64,000 nt of DNA from Psococerastis gibbosa (Eukaryota; Arthropoda; Insecta; Psocodea; Psocidae). The translations under genes and the position numbers were made by a program. The notes beneath the pieces are model-generated. The model ran no database searches and had not been told where the DNA came from. It saw nothing but the letters and a program-made list of their open reading frames with translations. The stretch spans positions 10,030,874-10,094,873 of the forward strand of contig OZ020490.1 of assembly GCA_963971405.1 (NCBI GenBank). The letters are read 5' to 3'. This document shows, one piece after another, positions 20,259-60,639 of the stretch (positions are counted from its first letter, which is position 1; every line of letters begins with the position of its first letter).

Positions 20259-23200
20259 CAGGCCCGGCCCGAGGTATTTTCTTGAGTGGTGCGAGTTTAC
20301 ATTTTAGCGCCCCCCCCCCCCCCCTCCCAGAGACCGTAAATTATTCATGAACGCTTGAGTATGGGAGACATTAAAAAATTGTGCATGCTTCTTATAAAGG
20401 GATTGTATTAGGCAACTGTAACTAATAACTAAATGTAAAATTATTGAAATTTCTCCTTCCTAGCTTTGATGCTAGCAAATTTTTTAATCAAATGATCATA
20501 GGAGAGATTGTTGGCGATCTCATTTTCTATGGATAATATGGCTAAGTCCGACAATTTCTCATCAGCTAAAACAGACCTTAGGTAGGTCTTTATCAATTTT
20601 AGCTTGCTGAAGCTCCTTTCTCCCTTAGCAACAGTGACCGGTATAGTAATGAAAATGCGGAGAGCTGTCCAAACGTTTGGAAACATATCTTTCCAACAAT
20701 GCTTTGCCAAAAACTCAAGAACCCCCTTTGGATGCCCATCGTCGCCGCCTAAGAACGCACTAAGGCTCCTTATTTCTTGGGCTAGCTCGGTACCCGAAAT
20801 ATCACTGAGAGCGCCATGGGTTAAGACAGATTCTAAATCTGAGCAGGCCGCATTCAAACCATTATGGTCGATCTTTTTCAAATCGTACATAAATTGCCAT
20901 GTACTATTAATGTCACTTAATTGGGAAAAGCGCAACTGCAATGAATTAATGGCTGTGTCAATCATTGGATAGAAGACAGAGGTGCGAAACGCTGTTTCTG
21001 GGTCAGTAGGAGATTCGTCTTGATTTTCATAAGAAAACATCTTCTTTTTCCTTCGCAGACGGACAGTTTCAAACTCCTGAGTGATTTGTGCTTCTTCAGC
21101 GATTTCTTTGGCAGTGATGAGTGCAGAAGTGAAACCTGTACTTCTGTATTCTTTTAAAAATTTCAAGCATTTATTCATAATTTTTGTAGCTTCGGACAAA
21201 TCCATGGTTTCAGATTGCATTGTTTTGCTTACTAGATTAACCTGGAATAAAACATCGTACCATATGACTAACGCCATTAAGAACTCGAACTTTTCCAAAT
21301 TTACAAGAAGCGATTCAGCCTCTGAGCTTGCAACAGGGTCCGTTGATTGTTCATATTCATCCTCCAGAGCCCTTTTAACTTCAGCATACTGATACCGCAC
21401 TGCTTTCAAGCTGTTGATCCTGCTTTCCCAGCGTGTGTCACAAACCTTTTTCAGGCTTAAATTTTGCAGATGCTCTGAGACCACCTTCCACCGCTTTGTT
21501 GAATTTGAGAAATACACAAACAGCCGTTGCAGCACACCAAAAAGAGACACTGATTTGATAGAAGTTTTTGCTGCATCGGCAACCACAAGGTTGAGACTAT
21601 GACAGCCGCAAGGGTTAAAAAAGGCTCGTGGATAGGTTTTAGCAATGCGACTCTGAACTCCTTTAATGTGTCCAACCATATTAGCACCATTATCATATCC
21701 TTGGCCCCTGCAGTCATTCATGTCAATACCATATTTATCAATTATTTCGTCCAAAAATAAGCCCGTCAGGCCGGCTCCAGTTGAGTCAGCCACTGGCTTA
21801 TATGTCAAAAAACACTCACGCACACGCGCTTCATCGACGTCGAAAAATCTGAAGGTGACACTCATTTGCTCAGTGTGGCTGATGTCAGGAGTACAGTCTA
21901 AAATTATAGAAAAATACTTGGCACTTCTTATTTTAGATAATATTTGGCCTCTTACTTCGTCAGCTAATAATTTAATTACTTCGTTTTGAATATTTTTGCT
22001 AAAATAAAAATGCTTGGATTCCTTCTGCATCACTCTTCGCAAGTGCTCCATCATGACGGGGTCGAATTGGCCAAGTAATTGTACAAGGCCTAAGAAATTC
22101 CCATTTCTTGGAGTGTATAAAGTGTCCTTGCTACCACGAAAAGGCAAATTGTGTTCAGCCAAAAACAGCGTGATGGCGATCATTCGTTCCATAACAGAAG
22201 ACCACCTTGCTTTTTCATCCTCCAATTGCTTCTGAAGCCCTTTATCTATGCCACAACATTTTTTTAACCTTTTAGCCGTTTCAAGCCACGTTAATAAGGC
22301 TTGCTGGTGGTCGTCAGAAAACTCATGGCTCGTTAGTAAACGAGACAAATGATGCCAGTTGTCAGAGCCAACATTGGAAAGATGGCAACGACTTGTGCGC
22401 TTGAAGATGTGACAACAAAAGCAGTATACTTTCTTTGTTGAATTGGAATAAACAAGCCACTGCCGCTCATATACTTCTCCGTTGGGCATGCTTTTTTTGA
22501 AATGGCTGTTGGAAAAATGCCGGCCTTTCTCATTTTTTGGGTATTTATCATCATCGAGTTTCCCGTTTTGCGGCCCCTCTTCAACGATCATGTCAATAAC
22601 TTGTGAAGACAAGTAAGAGGGCCACTTGGCTATGTCCATAGAAAAACTTCTTTCTTCTTCACTGCAAGGCAAGTTCTCAAAAATGGCCTCGTCCAGCGCA
22701 ACCGCCTGGGCCTCACTCTCAACCGTACTTTCCTTGCTTGTACTAGGGGGCTGGGTTGGGTCTGGATGTGGACCTGGCCGTTTTAGAAATTTGGCCATTT
22801 GCGCCGCTTGCTTTTCATTCTCAGCTTCCCTAGCTCTTCTTTTCCTCTCATTTCCGGCGCCTGACAATTTTTTCCACATTGCCTTTGCAAAGTTGCTAAA
22901 ATAAAAGACACATAAATTACCTTAAGTCTAAATAAAGTCCAAAATAAATAAATATACAATAAGTTGGACATACAGTAGACATAAATTCTCTTATTTGATA
23001 TTAATAACAAACACAAACCATTCGCAGAATTGCAAGCCGAGCCACTTCTTAATCTGCTTTGTAACTCTCTTATTTATTATAACAACAACTTAATACAAAT
23101 ACCGCTATAAAGCATCTGCGTCTGCTTACCTTAAAATTTTTTTGTTGCCAATTGCAATTATTTATAAAAATCTCACAAGAGATACGAGTGAAGCTGAAAT

Positions 23201-27905: not shown

Positions 27906-30900
27906 TTATTTTTTCCCGCCTGAAAATTTTTCTGCCAATTCAGCCGCTTTCTCATCCGCTTTGCGTTTAGCTTCAAGCGCCATTACTTTTGTTTGCTCAG
28001 CGAGTTCCTCAGCGAGTTCCTCAGCACTTTTCAATGTTTCACCAGCAGTTTTTTTAATTTTTCCCGCCAATTCGGCTGCTTTCTCATCCGCTTTATGTTT
28101 AGCTTCCAGTACCTTTTCTTTCGTTTGCTCAGCAAGTTCCTCAGCACTTTTCAATGTTTCACCAGTAGTTTTTTTAATTTTTCCCGCCAATTCAGCTGCT
28201 TTCTCATCCGCTTTATGTTTAGCTTCCAGTGCCTTTTCCTTCGTTTGCTCAGCTAGTTCCTCAGCACTTTTCAAAGTTTTATCAACAATAGTAGTCGCCT
28301 GCAATTTTACATTGAATTAACATACATTATGGGAGTCCGTAGATGGTGGAGCATTATACAAAACCGAGATGAATGGTGGAGTATTGTCCAACAGGCCAAA
28401 ACCCATAAAGCGTTGTCCAGAAGAAGAAGATACGCTCATTAACGGCAAGTGCCTTGATTCGTTAGGGTAATTACGTTAGAATATACATGAATCAGAAAGT
28501 ATCGATGATACCTTAAAAAGCCGTGCGGCTGTTTGGTCTGAAACAGAACTACCAAGCGTTTCGTCATCATCTGCGGCCGACATCTTCAGTGACACTTCAG
28601 TGACAAGGCGGTAGCGTGCTTGCGCTTGTGAGTGGAATCCTTATTTTAAATAATGGATTAGACTTAGACTGTTCGTTAAGTGAGATACGTTATTAATACC
28701 TATGTAAGTTTAGTTTTAATAGTTATATTTAGTATATTTAATTATTTATTTGTCAATATATTTTGGGGCAGGGAAAATTGTTATAGGTTTACCTAGGGTA
28801 GGGCAATGATTTATATTGATGTTGATGGTGTATTTGTTTGCTTATATTTCAGTAGACGTTTACTTACTTACTTAGTTAAAATTGTTGTTTGAAAAGTTGT
28901 TAATCTGATCTAATGGACAATAGATTCTCACCTTTTCGAGTTTATCTTTAAAAGCTTCACTGGCCGCATCTTTTGCATGGTCGATTTTTATAGAAACTTC
29001 TTCTGCCTTATTCTTAAGTTCTGAAATAAAACCGAATTTGCAAATTCACTTTATTATTCTTTATTTAAGCAGTCTTAAAAAAATATCCATTACTCTATAG
29101 TAGTGGTTTCCAAGCAGTGGTCCGCGAGACTTTGACAAATGATCCACGAGAATGCCTGCAGTGAGTTAAGAGTTGCTATTAACAAGAACATTGAGCCGAG
29201 AATACAAGAACTTTTAAAAAACTTGCGTGCCCAAGTTTCATATTAACTTTGCCGCCCATTAAAATCATACTATAAGCGAAATATAGTGATATTCTTGAAA
29301 GCCTTCTAATTCTTAAAAAAAATAACTATATTAAAAAACAAATTGTAGGCCTGAGTGGTCCAACCTCTGACCGTCACTGTTTGGGAACCACTGCTCTATC
29401 GGGTAATAAAATTTAAAATTTAAACCCGTCTGATACACATTACTAAGCCATATTATAAACAAATCGAAAATTTCTAATAGCATCTACAATCCGTTCTTCT
29501 TATGGTGAGATCAGCAGCTTTTGTGGCTAGTAATTCTTCAGCTGCCCTTTTCCCTTTCCAAAACACTGTCGGTTTTAATTGTCAATCAGTTCTACCACCA
29601 TAAAATACTAGCTACATATTGGAGGAATATGCTATACGGTATTTAGAGGAATTGATGGCAACTCGATTTAGTATGAAAGAAATGTGTCTTTCTTTTCAAT
29701 ATGGGCGAATTTTCCGCCTTTCGGCCTGAACATTACAAATTATTTTGTTACAAATTTAACTTATTAGATTGTTTTTTTTAAGATTAAGATTAAAATAGGC
29801 CCTATATAACTTAAAAACTAAAAGGGCATTTACTGTTTTACACTCCATTCACTCACCATACATACTGAAGGAATAAAACATTATACAGTAGAAACATACC
29901 TTCCTTTTTTTGATCAACAAAGACTTCGACCTCCTGGAGTTTGGTATTTAAGACGTAACTGGCCTGGGAACGGATAAAAGAAAGAACCTTAACTGATATT
30001 TTTGACGGCTGCATGATAAGTAAATAAATAATTTAAATAAATATTGACTTTTTTGTTCTATTACTAAGCCAACGTAGCGTAGGGCTATAAATCCCTCTCT
30101 TACACTCAACTATAGGAAGACACGGGACCGCCTGGTTCACATGCCCTCCGAATCATGGCCAGAAAATGTAGCAAGTGTGGGACTCGAACCAACAACCTTT
30201 CGGGTGAAGTCGGAGTCAGTACCTCTACTCTACATGTCTTGACATGATCTATGTTTTCTTTGAAAATCGACTTAGTCCCACCAGAGACTATAAGAGTTTG
30301 GAGAGTTTCAGGGTGGCAGTTACAGTTACAATTCACAAAAAGGAAGGGCAATTTTGAACTCTTAAGGGCAAACCTGAGTCGCCGATATTCCATTTACTCT
30401 TCAAACTTCAATTTCTCATGAAATATGGAACGCAGAACAATGAAACAATGCTGAATGGCAAGAAGAATTTTTTCTCCTAATTTTGATCTATAGTATGTGG
30501 CCTTAACTAACCCCAATTCGCCACAGTTGATGAACTCCTTCAGCTTGAACTCCTGAGTGACCGTTTTTTTTATTGCGTATCAAGTTCCCTAACTATAGCC
30601 GATCGGTATTGATGATTGCAACATACTATATATCAAAATTAGAAGAAAAAATTCTTCTTTCCATTCAGCATTTTTTCATTGTTATGCGTACCATATTTCA
30701 TCATGAGAAATTAAAGTTTGCTCAGAAATGGAATATCGGTGACTCCGGTTTGCCCTTAAAAAAATACGTAAAAATTATATGCTACCTATGCGTGAGAATT
30801 GTTAAATACGATAGGCACAACCTGACCACGATAGGATGACATTTGAAACAATTTCTTTATTCTAAAACTTCCCTAACACCGAGTTTCTTCAACTTTTATA

Positions 30901-33745: not shown

Positions 33746-33856
33746 TAGTATAGGCCTATATGTATTTATGTATATTATAGTATAGTATTCTTCTTCTTCT
33801 TCTGAGGTCACAATCTCACCGTTTGGCTGGCAGCAACTCTCTGCATATCATCCTCA

Positions 33857-34959
33857 TGGAAGCGCTGCTTTATCTGCCTCCCTTACATCTAACTGTTCAA
33901 AAAACCGCTCTTATAGCGGCCCTCCGTATTCAGAGAAATCGTTTATGGCTGGGAAGTTCTTTTTATACCCGCCACACGAAGATTATTAGAGAAGAAAGAC
34001 TGACCTGTCCGGAATTGGAGATGCCCTGGGACCGCATTCTCCCTCAGGTCCAGACCGACTCCGCTGCAGCGCCAATTATACCCACCAGAGACGAATGGCG
34101 CAATACGGATAGTGATGTGTTTGTTGAAAGTGAAGAAACTTGGTTTACAGATGGTTCACTAATGGGCGGTTTGGCTGGAGCAGGAGTTTACTGCAAAAAT
34201 CCTCCCATTTCTCAGTATATACATCTTGGGGAGTACGCTTCGGTTTTTCAAGCAGAAGTCATTGCGATAAGCGAAGCACTTCACTTCTCAATGTCAACGA
34301 AAAGTCAAAGCTGTGTCGTTTACTCGGACAGTCAAGCCGCTCTACTGGCCTTAAAAAATCCAACCGTCACTTCATCAGTGGTGAGAGACTGCAAAGACAA
34401 GCTGAGAAAACTAATGCGAACTAAAATTGTAAATCTCGTTTGGATCCCTGGTCACCAAGGTATGGACGGTAACGAAGAGGCAGACCGATTAGCGAGAATG
34501 GGTTCTGCCCAAAAACCAATTGGCCCGGAACCAATAGTACCGATACCAACGTGCGCTATCAAGAGTGTGCTTAAGAGGAAGACACACGAGAGGTTTGTCA
34601 CTGAATGGAAGGCAGCTTCACTACGGCAATCAAAAGTTTTTATTCGGGAGCCCAACGAACAATGGACAGGGAAACTAATGGGCCTCCGAAGGAACTGCTT
34701 GAGAATTGTTGTAGCAGCACTCACAGGACACGGCCCATTCCGCAAACACCTGCAGCAAATAAAGGCCATCCCTCCTGGCGACATCAGTTGTCGACACTGC
34801 GGTGAGGAGGAGGAAACGGCAAAACACCTCCTGTGCGACTGTCCAGCGATGTGGCGTTCACGAAAAGACTACTTTGGGGCTGCTTTCATCTCCCCGGAAG
34901 ACGTCATGAGCCATCCTACCAGATCGGCGGGCTTCATAAGAACAATGCAACTATTTTAG
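33857..34959 (+). pseudogene. Retrotransposon RNase H and CCHC C-terminal remnant
   Basis: The frame is open from the truncation point to the stop at 34959 without internal stops. It starts with the post-RT motif LPPLHLTVQKTALIAALRI. The RNase H1-like domain follows: WFTDGS (first Asp), QAEVIAISEAL (Glu), VVYSDSQAALLAL (Asp) and WIPGHQGMDGNEEADRLA (His and last Asp), so the catalytic set is present. A terminal zinc knuckle CRHCGEEEETAKHLLCDC ends the protein. In the parent element RNase H removes RNA after target-primed reverse transcription. Lacking 5' end and promoter, this copy is probably dead but young. Upstream residues in the open frame come from flanking RTE-A sequence. Confidence 0.85.
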
Positions 34960-54915: not shown

Positions 54916-55111
54916 CTACTGTACCTTTTAATTTTAGTAATATTCTGGCATTTTAAATCAACTTACCATACGTCATTGTTTGTTTAATGCAATTTGAAGC
55001 ACAATTTCGCATGCATAGTCATGAGCTATAGCTAACGAATTAATTTGACACCTATGTAAGCTTGTTTCAAGGACTTTTGAAGGTCCCGTGTATGACGCTT
55101 TTTGCTCTGAG

Positions 55112-55119
55112 TATATAAA
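55112..55119 (+). promoter_or_regulatory. TATA box of secreted repeat-protein gene
   Basis: TATATAAA lies 54 bases before the ATG. With usual spacing, transcription would begin near 55140-55145, giving a short leader of about 20-25 bases. Confidence 0.7.
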
Positions 55120-55165
55120 GCTGACTGCAGACGAGGATTAATCACGATTCATCGGAACAACAGCG

Positions 55166-58100
55166 ATGTTGCAGCTACCAGTCTTTACTGTGGCTCTTGC
55201 CCTCCTAGTGGTAAGTAAACATTCATGCTCAACCAGGCCCATACCCGTATTGTGGGGGGAGGGGGGGTAGTTGTGGGTCAAAATAGAACAAACATAATAG
55301 GGGTATTCACTGTGTTGGTAGAAAAGGGAAAATAGAGAAATAGCTCAGAGTGAGGATATCTCCGGCAACCATAGAAATAGAAAAGCCTAACCTAGTAGTA
55401 GTATGGTTGGACACAGTCCTAGGCCACGGTGTGGGCCCATAGGACAGTGGACCTCCTGATTATTGTTACGATTATTGTGAAATGGCGCCAAAACTAATTT
55501 GAAAGTAAGTGATGTTGGCAGCCATGAGATTTGTTTAACAAAGTAGTTGTTATGTTGGCTGAATTTAGCAGTTGCCATTGTTGTAAGAAAAACAAAGCCT
55601 CGGGGATCTTTTACTGTCAATAATGTACTACACATTTTATGTATTTCATCAATAAACATAATCCGTTCCTACAATCCAGTTCTCGTATTTAATAAAAATT
55701 ATAGTGGATTCCGAACCACTTGGGAAACACAGTAAAATCACACGATTAGTTCGGAGGTGACCAGGACAAGTCCTACCATGTTTCCCTAGCGACGCTGTGC
55801 ACACGACCAAGTTACCTGCATCTTTGAACCTGCTCTGGTCCGCTGATTTCAACTTGGTATGGCAGCCGGCAAGCCTAACCTAATTTACCTCCAAAGTTTC
55901 TTTGCCTTCTGCTATTAACTTATGAACATCGGCTGTAGTCCACCTCTTGCCACATGTTTACTTTTTTTTATTATTATTTTCTGTCGCATTTTTGAAATTA
56001 AAAAAAAAATATGCCCGTTTTCGATTCCCCAAGTGCAGATCCCCCACCGACGTGTTACTTGTTGGGTAAAGTGAGATTGTTGGGGAAACAGGTTTCCTTA
56101 TGGCATTATATTTCTATGTAGAGAAACGGGAGTTCTGTTTTTCTATTTTCCATCAGTTTCCTACTTTCCCTTAGGGTAAACCTAACACAGTGAATACCAC
56201 TATTACAACAAGTGAGTTGCCTATTAGCAAAAGCAATCCTGTCCACCCAGGTCGATTTTTCAGAAACCGCAAAAAACTGCTGTGCCGCAACGCCATGAGG
56301 TATAACATTACAGTTTTTAAAGCTAATTTTAATAGTATTAGAATTGCTTTTGCGTCTCAATATCTGATTCATTGAATAGAGCATTGAAAAATAAAAAAAA
56401 TGGCGCGAATATTTCAAAACTCAAAAAAAATGGAGAGGATTGCTTTTGCTAATAGGCAACTCAAGTAATCAACAAGAAAGTATAAAGTAAAATCGTCAAA
56501 ATATCATAAAAATCAGGTAGTTCTGTCATTATCAATATGTCAGTGCCACAGTGACAGTGTAGAAAGCTTTCTCTAAGAGAGAAATTCAGGGAATTTAGTA
56601 GCATTCAAGAGGGGGGATGGTGCCTCAGTGGGCACCGTATACTAAGGTTTAGTTGTTGGCACATTCTATTACTGTATAGCAGACTATTAGACAAAAAATG
56701 TTTTATGGCTTGCCAGGAATATGTGAGGAGGCTGTTTACAAACATGGCCAACTCCAAGTTGTAGAATTTTTCAGGAGAGTGGATTGTCTGTTGAAAATTG
56801 CATTAAGTTTATAGCTAACTTCTCAGCACTTCTGTGCGCAATCTGGCTGCTTTTGTCACTTTATTTTACAACGTGCAGGTGGACATTAAAATTTTCTGCA
56901 AGGTCGGATCAAAACCCCATTTTGTAGAAAAATGGAGTTGGCCACGTTTGTAACCAAGCTCCTCATGTAGTAATTTATTTGAATATGGCTTTGATTCCTA
57001 ACTTATCTTACTTATCGTAACCTTGTGCAATTACACTTTGATGTGCCTAGATCGTTATTGGTTTGGTTTCTAGGGTGTCCAAGGACACTATGGAGGCGGT
57101 GGATATGGCGGATATGGTGGCCCAAGCTACGGTGGCGGTTATGGTGGCCAAAGCTACGGTGGCGGTTACGGTGGTCAAAGCTATGGAAGCAACGGTGGAT
57201 ACTATGGTGCTCCAGGTTAGTAATAATTTGTGGGTCATTATTAGAAAGCACCAGGTGACCAAGGCTGTAGCCAAGGGGGGGGGGGGGTTCAACCCCCCCC
57301 CCCCCCCCGAAATGAAATAGCTTGATACTAGATAGAATCGGGGTTTGAGAGGAAAAATAAAAACCACTGTAATATCCAATGAAATTCTGACCCCCCCCCC
57401 CCCCCCCGAAAAAAATTAAGCCTAGACTGTAATAAAAAGAAACCATGGACCTATATTTTACGTATCTATACTTATTGATTAATGGTTGAGCATGTACGGT
57501 TGTTGCATGTTGACAATAGATTTGGATTGGTTTCCACAGGTTACTTACTTTAAACTGCACGGGGGGGGGGGGATGCCTATTTTATGTAGGCTACAGGGAC
57601 GTGCCCGTGATGTAATCTGTTGTGGGTAGCAAAATGATGTATTGCAGCATGCGCTTAGTATTAAATAAATAAATAATGACTTCTTTGTTCTATTATTAAA
57701 TTTTATTTAGGGCTATATTATAGCCGTCACTTATACTCAAGTGGGAAAGCCCTTCGAAGTATGGCCAGGAAATGTGGGCATATTGTTAGCCTTTATCATG
57801 CAGTAAGTAATACAACTGCAATCGATGCCAACACTTTTTTTTTCTCTTTAAAAAAAGTTAATACCACAAAAACAATTCAATGAATGTATCCGATTGACCT
57901 CTTCAGTCGCCACGTCTCCGTTCGCATGGCTTGTAAAGACTCGCACAAGTGCAAGCAGGTTACCACTGGCATCTTCACTTAACTAAAATATTGGTTTCAG
58001 CTTCCAGAACTGTTGTTGTACAGCAGCAGCCAGCTCCAGTGAATTATGTTTACGCTCAGCAGCAGCCAAATTATTATTACCAACAACAATACCAACAAGG

Positions 58101-59829
58101 TCCACTACAAACCGTTGCCTATCGACAACCAGCTCAACAAACAGTTGTCTACCAGCAACAGCCATCTGCGCAATCCGTCGTCTACCAACAACCGCCTCAA
58201 CAAACCGTCGTCTACCAGCAACCGGCTCAACAAAGCGTCGTCTACCAGCAACCGCCTCAACAAAACGTCGTCTATCAACAACAGCCTCAACAGCAAGTTA
58301 CCACATATGCTGCTGCGCCAGCTGCTAACACAGGCACATCCAGCGGTTACGGAGGCTACTCTGGCGCTGGTGGAAATGGCGGCAATGGAGGGAGTAACGG
58401 AGATGATGGAAAGCAGATGGTGCAGAACCAAAACTTGAGCATTAATATTCCCTCCAATGGTGGCAGCAATGGTGGTAGCAATGGAGGTAGCAGCGGAGGC
58501 AGCGGACAAGCCGTCAATACTGCCCCAGTGGCTCAGCCTCAGTATGCAACGGCTTCACGTGCCCCTGCTACACAGACCATCGTTGAAGAAACTACCACTA
58601 CTTATCCAGCTTATCCTCAAGGAGCCAATACCGCTGTCTACGGCGCTAATGGAGGTTCTGCTTACAACCAGCAAAGCTACGGATCTCAGTATCCACCCCA
58701 AGGGTATCCTGCTAACTATGGAGCACCAGCTGGTACATCAATGACTGAGACGACCACTTACAATCAAGCACCCCCACAACAAGGACCAGTGACTACTCAA
58801 ACTACAACTCAATACCCCGCAGCACAGCAGGGTGGTTACACTTCGCAAACTTACAACCAACCACCCCTACAACAGGGACCAGTAACTACACAAACTACAA
58901 CTCAATACCCAGCTGGACAACAGGGTGGTTACACTACTCAAACGTATAACCAAGCACCCCCACAACAGGGACCAGTAACTACACAAACTACAACTCAATA
59001 CCCAGCTGGACAACAGGGTGGTTACACTACTCAAACGTATAACCAAGCACCCCCACAACAGGGACCAGTAGCTACACAAACTACAACTCAATACCCAGCT
59101 GGACAACAGGGTGGTTACACTACTCAATCGTACAACCAAGCACCCCCACAACAGGGACCAGTAACTACACAAACTACAACTCAATACCCAGCTGGACAAC
59201 AAGGTGGTTACACTACCCAAACCTACTATCCACCTGCTGAAGAAGTTGTTACTACGCAAACTGTCACCCAGTACCCTGTTGGACAGCCCGCTCAGGGTGG
59301 TTACACTACACAAACGTACAACCAAGCACCCCCACAACAGGGACCAGTAACTACACAAACTACAACTCAATACCCAGCTGGACAGCAGGGTGGTTACACT
59401 ACGCAGACGTACAACCAACCACCGCAGCAGCAGGGACCAGTAACTACTCAAAGTACAACTCAATACCCAGCTGGACAGCAGGGTGGTTACACTACGCAGA
59501 CGTACAACCAACCACCGCAACAGCAGGGACCAGTAACTACTCAGACCACAACTCAATACCCAGCTGGACAACAGGGTGGTTACACTACACAAACCTACTA
59601 TCCACCTGCTGAAGAAGTTGTTACTACGCAAACTATCACCCAGTACCCTGCTGGGCAACCCGCTCCAGGTGGTTACACCACCCAAACGTTCAACCAACAA
59701 CCCGGGCAAGGTGGCTACACTACGCAACAATACACCCAACCAGCACCCGTCCAGCCGGCAGTGCCCGTCGCTCAAACAACTAAAACAACGACGACTATTA
59801 TCAATCCAAACCAGCCAGCTGGATACTAA
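55166..59829 (+). CDS. Secreted Gly/Tyr- and Gln/Pro/Thr-rich repeat protein
   Basis: Three exons: 55166-55210, 57074-57215 and 58001-59829. Splice borders are GTG/GTAAGT, TTTCTAG/GGT, CCAG/GTTAGT and TTTCAG/CT; phases 0 and 1 agree, giving 671 aa. Exon 1 plus the next residues form a signal peptide, MLQLPVFTVALALLVGVQG. Exon 2 encodes GGGGYGGYGGPSYGGGYGG-like repeats. Exon 3 has five QPxQQxVVYQ decapeptides, a Gly/Asn/Ser-rich linker with KQMVQNQNLSINIPS, and ten 31-residue modules built on PPQQGPVTTQTTTQYPAGQQ plus GGYTTQTYNQ, two of them PPAEEVVTTQ variants. There is no cysteine or tryptophan and almost no lysine. This composition fits an extracellular structural protein (cuticle, silk, cement or mucus); no catalytic domain is present. 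A 626-codon open frame starting at 57949 is false: its start lies in an intronic SINE. The exact family is not recognised. Confidence 0.85.
55242..55300. repeat. Solo hAT-type terminus in intron 1
   Basis: CAGGCCCATACCCGTATTGT followed by G-runs and GGGTAGTTGTGGGTCAAAAT matches the inner left part of the MITE at 31292. The right end is missing. Confidence 0.4.
55405..55865 (-). repeat. R3 copy in intron 1, split by a 230-bp insertion
   Basis: GGCCACGGTGTGGGCCCATA and GTGGACCTCCTGATTAT, then unrelated DNA, then AGTGGATTCCGAACCACTTG onward to ACTTGGTATGGCAGCCGGC at 55857-55872. The insertion (about 55463-55697) is bracketed by ATTAT and is AT-rich with ATAAAC and AATAAA near its right end. The identity of the insert is unknown. 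Confidence 0.6.
56214..56462. mobile_element. MITE with perfect 27-bp inverted repeats in intron 1
   Basis: A 249-bp element: GAGTTGCCTATTAGCAAAAG at left is mirrored exactly by CTTTTGCTAATAGGCAACTC at right; the full match is 27 bp. AAGT lies on both sides (56210-56213 and 56463-56466), a possible 4-bp target duplication. Superfamily unknown. Confidence 0.8.
57260..57430. mobile_element. Degraded hAT-type MITE in intron 2
   Basis: CAAGGCTGTAGCCAAGG followed by 14 G and 18 C at left; internal AGCTTGATACTAGATAGAAT and ATATCCAATGAAATTCTG are the reverse of the 25012-25188 element. The right end (AAAAATTAAGCCTAGACTG) is eroded. It lies 45 bp past the exon 2 donor. Confidence 0.65.
57683..57778 (-). 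repeat. Truncated SINE-A in intron 2
   Basis: TTTGTTCTATTATTAAATTT, CACTTATACTCAAGTGGGAA and CGAAGTATGGCCAGGAAATG: the 3' half of SINE-A, antisense; the tRNA-like part is lost. (AAAT)n precedes it. Confidence 0.6.
57835..57975 (-). repeat. SINE-B copy in intron 2
   Basis: TTTTTTTTCTCTTTAAAAAAAG, GAATGTATCCGATTGACCTC, TTCAGTCGCCACGTCTCCG and GCACAAGTGCAAGCAGGTTA. Its box A end lies about 25 bp before the exon 3 acceptor at 58000. Confidence 0.7.
58755..59690 (+). repeat. 93-bp coding tandem repeats in exon 3
   Basis: GGACCAGTxACTACxCAAAC-type starts fall every 93 bp from about 58783 (58783, 58876, 58969, 59062, 59155, then 59341, 59434, 59527), with a diverged PPAEEVV module filling the gap near 59230 and again near 59600. 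Synonymous sites are highly similar between neighbours, indicating recent unequal exchange. The frame is kept throughout. Confidence 0.9.
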
Positions 59830-60639
59830 TAATTCCAAAATCACCACTTGTAACGTGAAGATATAGAATGGCAATATAGTGCTGATTGCTTATGTCTACT
59901 GCTGCTACAACTATTGTATTTTCTAAAAAAAAAAAAAAATACAAAATATCAGCATGCATATAGTTTTAGACTTTTAGCCTATTCAATGCTGTATAGACAT
60001 GGGATATGAGGTTGAAAATTTTAATTTACTAGAATTTCGACACTAGATTACAATAAAAGCCATGTTGTAATTACTAAACGTAGAAAATAGGCTAAATTTT
60101 TCCCCTTTAGCCTATTACTTTACGTCAAAGATAATTTGAGTTTTCAACCTATGCGCCAAATTGTTATTCGATCGTTCCTGTGCATATTAGAAATGTAGAT
60201 TTACTAGAACTGAATATATTTTTGAATAAATATTGTATGCAATAATGGATTATCATTTAAAATTTTTCATTGCGCCGTGTTACAGGAACTACAGATTGCA
60301 TTCCCGGGATCTTTTGTTGCTCCCGGTAATCTCGCTACATTAAGATAATAAATGAGAATAGTACGATTTCTATAGTATACAACAATGGATTATTATAAAA
60401 AGTTTTCCATTGCAACTACATGTCGCATTCCCGAGATCCCGGGATCATTTGTTGCTCTCGGTAATCCCGGTATTTCGGGATTGGACAATGTAAGGGATTA
60501 GTAGGATTTATTAATTTTGAAAACATAAGCTTCGATAGTTTTCCTCACCAGTAGCACAAGAGAAGTTACAGTCAAAGACAATTAACTCATATTTTTGCTT
60601 AGAAATAAAGCTTGAAAGAGGTGTACAGTAGGTCATAAA
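59830..60639 (+). other. 3' untranslated region and flank
   Basis: AATAAA at 60052-60057 and again at 60225-60230 could end the transcript. CATTCCCGGGATC and CATTCCCGAGATC blocks near 60300 and 60427 with TGGATTATxATxxAAAxxTTTxCATTG mark an imperfect direct repeat of about 125 bp. Confidence 0.45.

Follow-up and report, generated by a model that had tools for sequence, protein, structure and literature searches.

A three-exon gene (gene A) encoding a low-complexity protein was identified on the forward strand of a 64,000-nucleotide stretch of the genome of the barkfly Psococerastis gibbosa (C15:10030874-10094873; hereafter the window). Judged from the DNA, gene A is a genuine, working barkfly gene, and the first-pass annotation that had reconstructed it is confirmed with small corrections. 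Its product is probably a secreted structural matrix protein. A tandem sister gene (gene B), recognized by comparison of the two sequences just past the window, provides the decisive evidence that gene A is real. The gene itself is well established; the tissue and material given for it below are proposals.

Structure of gene A and its tandem paralog

The open frame of gene A comprises 671 codons in the exons 55166-55210, 57074-57215 and 58001-59829 (+), which join in phases 0 and 1. The features of the two genes are listed below, with a slash at each splice junction.

54979..55165, +, promoter and 5' leader block of gene A, kept in gene B (154/186 aligned positions identical)
55112..55119, +, TATA box TATATAAA, 54 bases 5' of the ATG in A and B alike
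55166..55210, +, coding exon 1 of A, MLQLPVFTVALALLV, the first part of the putative signal peptide; donor GTG/GTAAGT, phase 0
57074..57215, +, coding exon 2 of A, GVQG and then a 43-residue Gly-Tyr module HYGGGGYGGYGG...; acceptor TTTCTAG/GGT; donor CAG/GTTAGT, phase 1
58001..59829, +, coding exon 3 of A, VVYQQ modules, a Gly/Asn/Ser spacer with QNLSINIPSNGG, the 31-residue TYNQ...GGYTTQ array and the stop
58107..58292, +, VVYQQ-type array of A, units of about 10 residues (period 30 bp, 6.1 copies)
58759..59697, +, 31-residue repeat array of A, 8 TYNQ-type units and 2 TYYPPAEEVV-type variants
64782-64826, 65917-66082 and 66521-66774 (window numbering continued), same strand as A, gene B, 154 residues

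The joined product of gene A reads MLQLPVFTVALALLV/GVQGHYGGGGYGG.../ASRTVVVQQQPAPVNYVY...TIINPNQPAGY. When exon 3 was copied 1000 times under a dinucleotide-Markov model, the longest open stretch reached 267 codons (median 114), versus about 609 in the real exon. Gene B is located in the first 10-kb stretch past the window (L015), and the ATGs of the two genes are 9,616 bases apart. The donors GTG/GTAAGT and CAG/GTTAGT are alike in both genes, the acceptors are TTTCTAG and TTTCAG in each, and the signal-like start of gene B is split likewise, with phases matching those of gene A. Because gene B repeats the TATA distance, donors, acceptors and phases, the model of gene A is upheld without RNA. 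The three exons and matching phases claimed in the first-pass annotation are thus supported by the 671-codon join and by the paralog, and the TATA box at 55112, which recurs at an equal distance from the ATG in gene B, was also correctly placed. The reported absence of Cys and Trp was borne out, with 0 of each among the 671 residues of the precursor.

Elsewhere between the two genes, no matches were found in intron 1 apart from its last few hundred bases (55230-56680), one match of 38 bases was found in intron 2 (57245-57965), and the approximately 2 kb located 5' of the promoter gave a single match of 21 bases. Genome-wide searches covered 68 contigs and 409,210,807 bases. A protein search with gene A gave 3 matches, all within genes A and B. 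The start of exon 2, searched as a degenerate pattern, occurred at 2 places, which are again genes A and B. Two genes are a lower bound for the size of the family, as searches of this kind are less sensitive with low-complexity sequences. A relic of the spacer of gene A (AANT..., NLSI...PS.G) follows the stop codons of gene B, with more stops and a frame change, and is preceded by an apparent insertion relative to gene A that brings TAATAA. Gene B was probably cut short by this insertion carrying stop codons. The 31-residue array is present in gene A only and not in gene B.

The genome note of P. gibbosa (PMC12559846) describes 10 chromosomes and 17,010 protein-coding genes annotated by Ensembl, and gene A may already be among these. 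The sequence data named in that note are PacBio and Hi-C, and no word beginning with RNA occurs in its main text.

Selection on the protein

The 8 TYNQ-type units of gene A differ, over all pairs, by 36, 31 and 175 differences at codon positions 1, 2 and 3, respectively. The proportion of synonymous differences (pS) is 0.274 and that of nonsynonymous differences (pN) is 0.034, giving a pN/pS of 0.12; this value was counted with the two TYYP-type units left out, and mixing both types gave 0.45. Between genes A and B, pN is 0.125 and pS is 0.355 over 130 aligned codons, in which repeats make the VYQQ part difficult to align with certainty. The corresponding values are 0.076 and 0.460 for exon 2 (44 aligned codons) and 0.157 and 0.380 for exon 1. 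The third-position excess and the low pN relative to pS, both among the units and between the two genes, speak for purifying selection on the protein sequence, beyond mere repeat DNA.

Promoter, signal-like start and gene end

The cap site of gene A probably lies in CACGATT, with the A at 55144. Residues 2-16 of the product have a mean Kyte-Doolittle hydropathy of 2.12, versus 0.52 for the best 15-mer beyond residue 20. This hydrophobic, signal-like start is split by intron 1 after codon 15. The putative signal peptide would end with GVQG, and cleavage after VQG would produce the mature start HYGG. Mature A is taken here as the precursor minus its first 19 residues, which leaves 652 presumed mature residues. 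The earlier description of a secreted low-complexity protein fits the low complexity and the hydrophobic start, its secretion being a prediction.

Sites of the AATAAA/ATTAAA type occur 3' of the stop of gene A at 60052, 60225 and 60347, two of which are set out below.

60052..60057, +, first AATAAA/ATTAAA-type signal after the stop, chosen as the gene end in the first-pass annotation
60225..60230, +, AATAAA in the 3' stretch common to A and B, with its B counterpart at 67213

The site at 60225 appears a likelier polyadenylation signal than that at 60052 because it lies inside the 3' stretch common to both genes. The earlier gene end at 60057, which was the first of three signals, is therefore replaced by this candidate.

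Introns and interspersed repeats

57835..57970, +, interspersed repeat in intron 2 of A, holding the in-frame GTG 57949, with further copies elsewhere in the window

A genome-wide search with this repeat gave 646 first-look candidates, 40 of which were scored to give 46 matches; the repeat was not found in intron 2 of gene B. From its copies, it is classed as a genome-wide interspersed repeat, of a class not established. The first-pass annotation had called it a SINE. The SINE class is not supported, as neither tRNA genes nor Rfam matches at gathering score were found in the window. The same annotation held that a prediction from a single open reading frame would start wrongly inside the SINE. 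The single open frame 57937-59829 opens after a stop inside the repeat, and a start within the repeat is obtained only via GTG 57949, whereas the first in-frame ATG (58417) is located outside it, within the true exon 3.

Genes A and B agree at 108/109 aligned positions over the final 109 bases of intron 1, with 11 extra bases in gene B, compared with 154/186 in the promoter block (Fisher p = 3.6e-6). This stretch belongs to the 3' end of intron 1 (56682-57073; L015 1758-1916), whereas identity in the promoter and exon parts is 74-83%. The simplest reading of this stretch is a probable gene conversion tract; alternatively, it may be a constrained intronic element. Its upstream part is identical at 41/43 positions. 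Intron 1 of gene A also contains approximately 240 bases (about 56724-56965) with inverted ends (56724-56756/56933-56965) that are absent in gene B. This insert, which separates the 41/43 part from the 108/109 part, looks like a small inverted-repeat transposon.

Composition and proposed hardening

The bare chain of gene A is about 68.5 kDa. Mature A contains 20.7% Gln, 16.1% Thr, 14.4% Gly, 11.2% Pro and 10.6% Tyr (69 residues); the basic residues Lys and Arg number 2 and 3, the acidic residues 9, and Cys is absent. Mature B is 135 residues long, with 21 Tyr, a single Lys and 21.5% Gly. The protein of gene A would be secreted and remain disordered and soluble, and would then be hardened extracellularly, mainly through its many tyrosines by dityrosine or quinone links. 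Lysines of other proteins could serve as alternative partners. Tyrosine-based hardening is proposed because the absence of Cys rules out disulphides and the 2 Lys limit Gln-Lys self-links.

Cuticle as the proposed site

The product of gene A is tentatively assigned to the cuticle or epicuticle, which is the most likely site although its chance falls a little short of even. Silk, glue or egg cover from a gland is the next candidate and a serious one. The gland and eggshell explanations also take the product to be a secreted structural matrix protein, and it is the site alone that sets them apart. The GGYGG module and a signal-like start split by an intron favour the cuticle mildly. The earlier suggestion of a silk, cement or cuticle polymer was fair from composition and architecture and is uncontradicted, but these alternatives are not told apart.

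One account of cuticular proteins (PMC12426002) states that nearly every cuticle protein contains Gly, Pro and Tyr, that GGY repeats of CPG1 are possibly implicated in cross-linking, and that CPG proteins are recognized by GXGX or GGXG repeats. Repeats of this type are present in the exon 2 module of gene A (43 residues), and GGY and GGN are scattered elsewhere. Whole-chain Gly is 14.4% in mature A and 21.5% in mature B, the criterion in that account being worded without a numeric limit. Gene A resembles the insect glycine-rich cuticular proteins (CPG) in its signal-like start, its GGYGG-type module and possible Tyr-based cross-linking. It differs from them in having only 14.4% Gly and a chain consisting mostly of Gln/Thr/Pro/Tyr repeats, and orthology to CPG is not established. 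The CPLC groups and the unclassified CPLCX are likewise low-complexity chains rich in Pro and Tyr; the CPLC groups are marked by conserved features of G, A, P or W and are listed for Diptera and Lepidoptera, whereas gene A is led by Gln. The invariant Trp of CPLCW is absent from gene A. Pfam presumably has a model of the retinin family (CPLCA-type region), and no retinin match was obtained for either gene with E up to 1.

Several observations weigh against a cuticular site. The Pfam search of A and B gave no family above the cut-off, and hence no cuticle domain. A signal peptide split by an intron is a trait not specific to CPR, and split signal peptides are also known in silk and eggshell genes. 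The Gln content of gene A (about 20%) resembles that of louse nit glue. Among the at least 105 Chitin_bind_4 matches listed for the genome, just one shares the chromosome of gene A, at 29.89 Mb and some 19.8 Mb distant, so the location lends a cuticular site no support. The usual CPR gene is described as having one intron, placed after the first few codons (PMC2793513), and gene A fits this rule in part, with its first intron after codon 15 plus a second intron. Furthermore, gene A is read here from DNA.

Membership of CPR was rejected for both genes, as neither A nor B gave a Pfam match to PF00379 (the Rebers-Riddiford chitin-binding domain) with E up to 1, versus at least 105 Chitin_bind_4 matches elsewhere in the genome. 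A location inside a Chitin_bind_4 gene cluster was also rejected on the distance to the nearest listed same-chromosome match, given above. The matches below the Pfam cut-off, acVLRF1 and Zn_ribbon_PRDM4 for gene A and Extensin_2 (E 0.0049) and Keratin_2_head for gene B, were taken as composition artefacts. NCBIfam gave nothing for the exon 3 product of gene A or for the whole of gene B, and a PDB search, made with the exon 3 product of gene A only, was equally empty. Among viral contigs searched with the same product, 14 stretches fit a pattern and 0 were relatives. The product of gene A is probably one more insect low-complexity structural secretion without a named family.

Alternative explanations

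The strongest competitor to a cuticular site, with a chance somewhat below it, is that the two genes code for a protein of silk, glue or egg cover made in the labial or female accessory glands, with a role like that of the nit sheath and another hardening chemistry. Lice and barkflies both belong to Psocodea, and the Gln content of mature A (20.7%) is close to that of the Pediculus proteins LNSP1 and LNSP2 (18.7 and 20.9%, respectively). The LNSPs, too, are described as lying in tandem and differing in length, each with a signal sequence predicted to span 18 residues, and as containing Gln-Ala and Gly-Ala dipeptide arrays and polyGln runs (PMC6328571). Their Lys number 12-13, or 14-15 as counted in the earlier paper, and they are reported to be cross-linked by transglutaminase (PMC8383413, PMC6328571). 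Compared by description, LNSP1 and LNSP2 share with A and B the order, an unequal tandem pair, a signal sequence, about 20% Gln and low complexity, whereas gene A has Tyr/Thr/Pro repeats and 2 Lys in place of the QA/GA arrays, polyGln, 12-15 Lys and transglutaminase linkage of the LNSPs. Neither A nor B contains repeated QA or GA (such repeats reach at most 1 in A, and 0 in B) or a Gln run longer than 3 (the longest is 3 in each), and Lys is limited to 2 in A and 1 in B.

A mucin-like lubricant or salivary glue, in which the Thr/Pro array would be O-glycosylated and water-binding rather than a hardened polymer, is unlikely. Screens for mucins have used 25% Ser+Thr or, more loosely, Ser+Thr of at least 20%, Pro of at least 5% and at least 4 repeats, as described in one report (PMC2515642). 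With 20.25% Ser+Thr, 11.2% Pro and more than 4 repeats, mature A is at the edge of the looser screen, and the 342-residue stretch with the array reaches 24.3% Ser+Thr and 13.5% Pro. The 671-residue precursor falls just below 20% (19.82% Ser+Thr), and the 25% level is not reached. Tyr near 10% is more typical of a cross-linked matrix. Drosophila mucins and the Sgs salivary glue proteins are similar to gene A in having Thr/Pro-containing tandem repeats in a putatively secreted chain. They differ from it in that gene A has only about 20% Ser+Thr and the shorter paralog B, with 10.4%, lacks the Thr array.

A chorion or vitelline protein of the eggshell, produced by follicle cells, is less probable still. 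A small first exon within the signal peptide, a TATA box, a short leader and Gly-Tyr repeats all fit such a gene; against it, no chorion family was found, as no Pfam family reached the cut-off for A or B, and nothing more specific argues against it. Finally, decaying or non-coding repeat DNA mimicking a gene is very improbable: low complexity throughout, the repeats in the introns and the decayed 3' part of gene B would suit it, but it is contradicted by the third-position excess, the pN/pS of 0.12, the length of the open frame, and the promoter, splice sites and phases kept in gene B. A chance open frame or pseudogene was rejected on the basis of the Markov copies, pN/pS and the conserved promoter and splice sites in gene B.

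Significance of the gene pair

Barkflies spin silk and cover their eggs, and among the titles listed by literature searches, none was on a barkfly silk protein. It is rather doubtful that the pair represents the first identified barkfly silk or egg-cover genes, hardened through tyrosine unlike nit glue and with the array in one copy only. In close relatives of lice, a polymer free of Cys, poor in Lys and rich in Tyr and Gln would point to one order having arrived at its structural secretions through different chemistry. The locus further illustrates how a gene of this kind can escape open reading frame and domain searches through low complexity and a split signal peptide, and how a tandem paralog backs a gene model without RNA.

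Other features of the window, chromosome and mitochondrion

An 826-residue open frame at 20441-22921 (-) has DUF4371 and hAT dimerisation domains above the cut-off, and is identified by these domains as a hAT-type transposase gene. A 136-residue Lys/Glu/Ala-rich repeat frame, KSAEELAEQTKEK..., at 27906-28316 (-) has YtxH and apolipoprotein-like scores below the cut-off; we take it to be LEA-like in look, and it is perhaps an exon. The frame at 33781-34959 (+), with an RNase H domain above the cut-off and a weak zf-RVT match, is probably the 3' part of a non-LTR (long terminal repeat) retroelement. Past the window, a frame at 111147-112070 (C15, continued numbering) has a signal-like start and a DUF4786 match (E 3e-13) above the cut-off.

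Fragments of mitochondrial cox1 gave 43 matches, one in the 17-kb mitochondrial contig (C68) and the rest elsewhere, e.g., C14:11085363-11086704. The mitochondrial order is M, -C, I, -Q, nad2, W, -Y, cox1, L2, cox2, K, D, atp6, cox3, G, A, R, -F, as read from 9,000 of 17,084 bases with frames except cox1 recognised by eye, and it leaves out two ARAGORN calls (-Val at the start and -Ser inside cox2). As trnA directly follows trnG, nad3 is away from its usual place. A report on two psocomorphan barklice describes nad3 and trnN, S1, E, M and C as moved (PMC3632521). The order found here, in the part read, fits the psocomorphan rearrangement.
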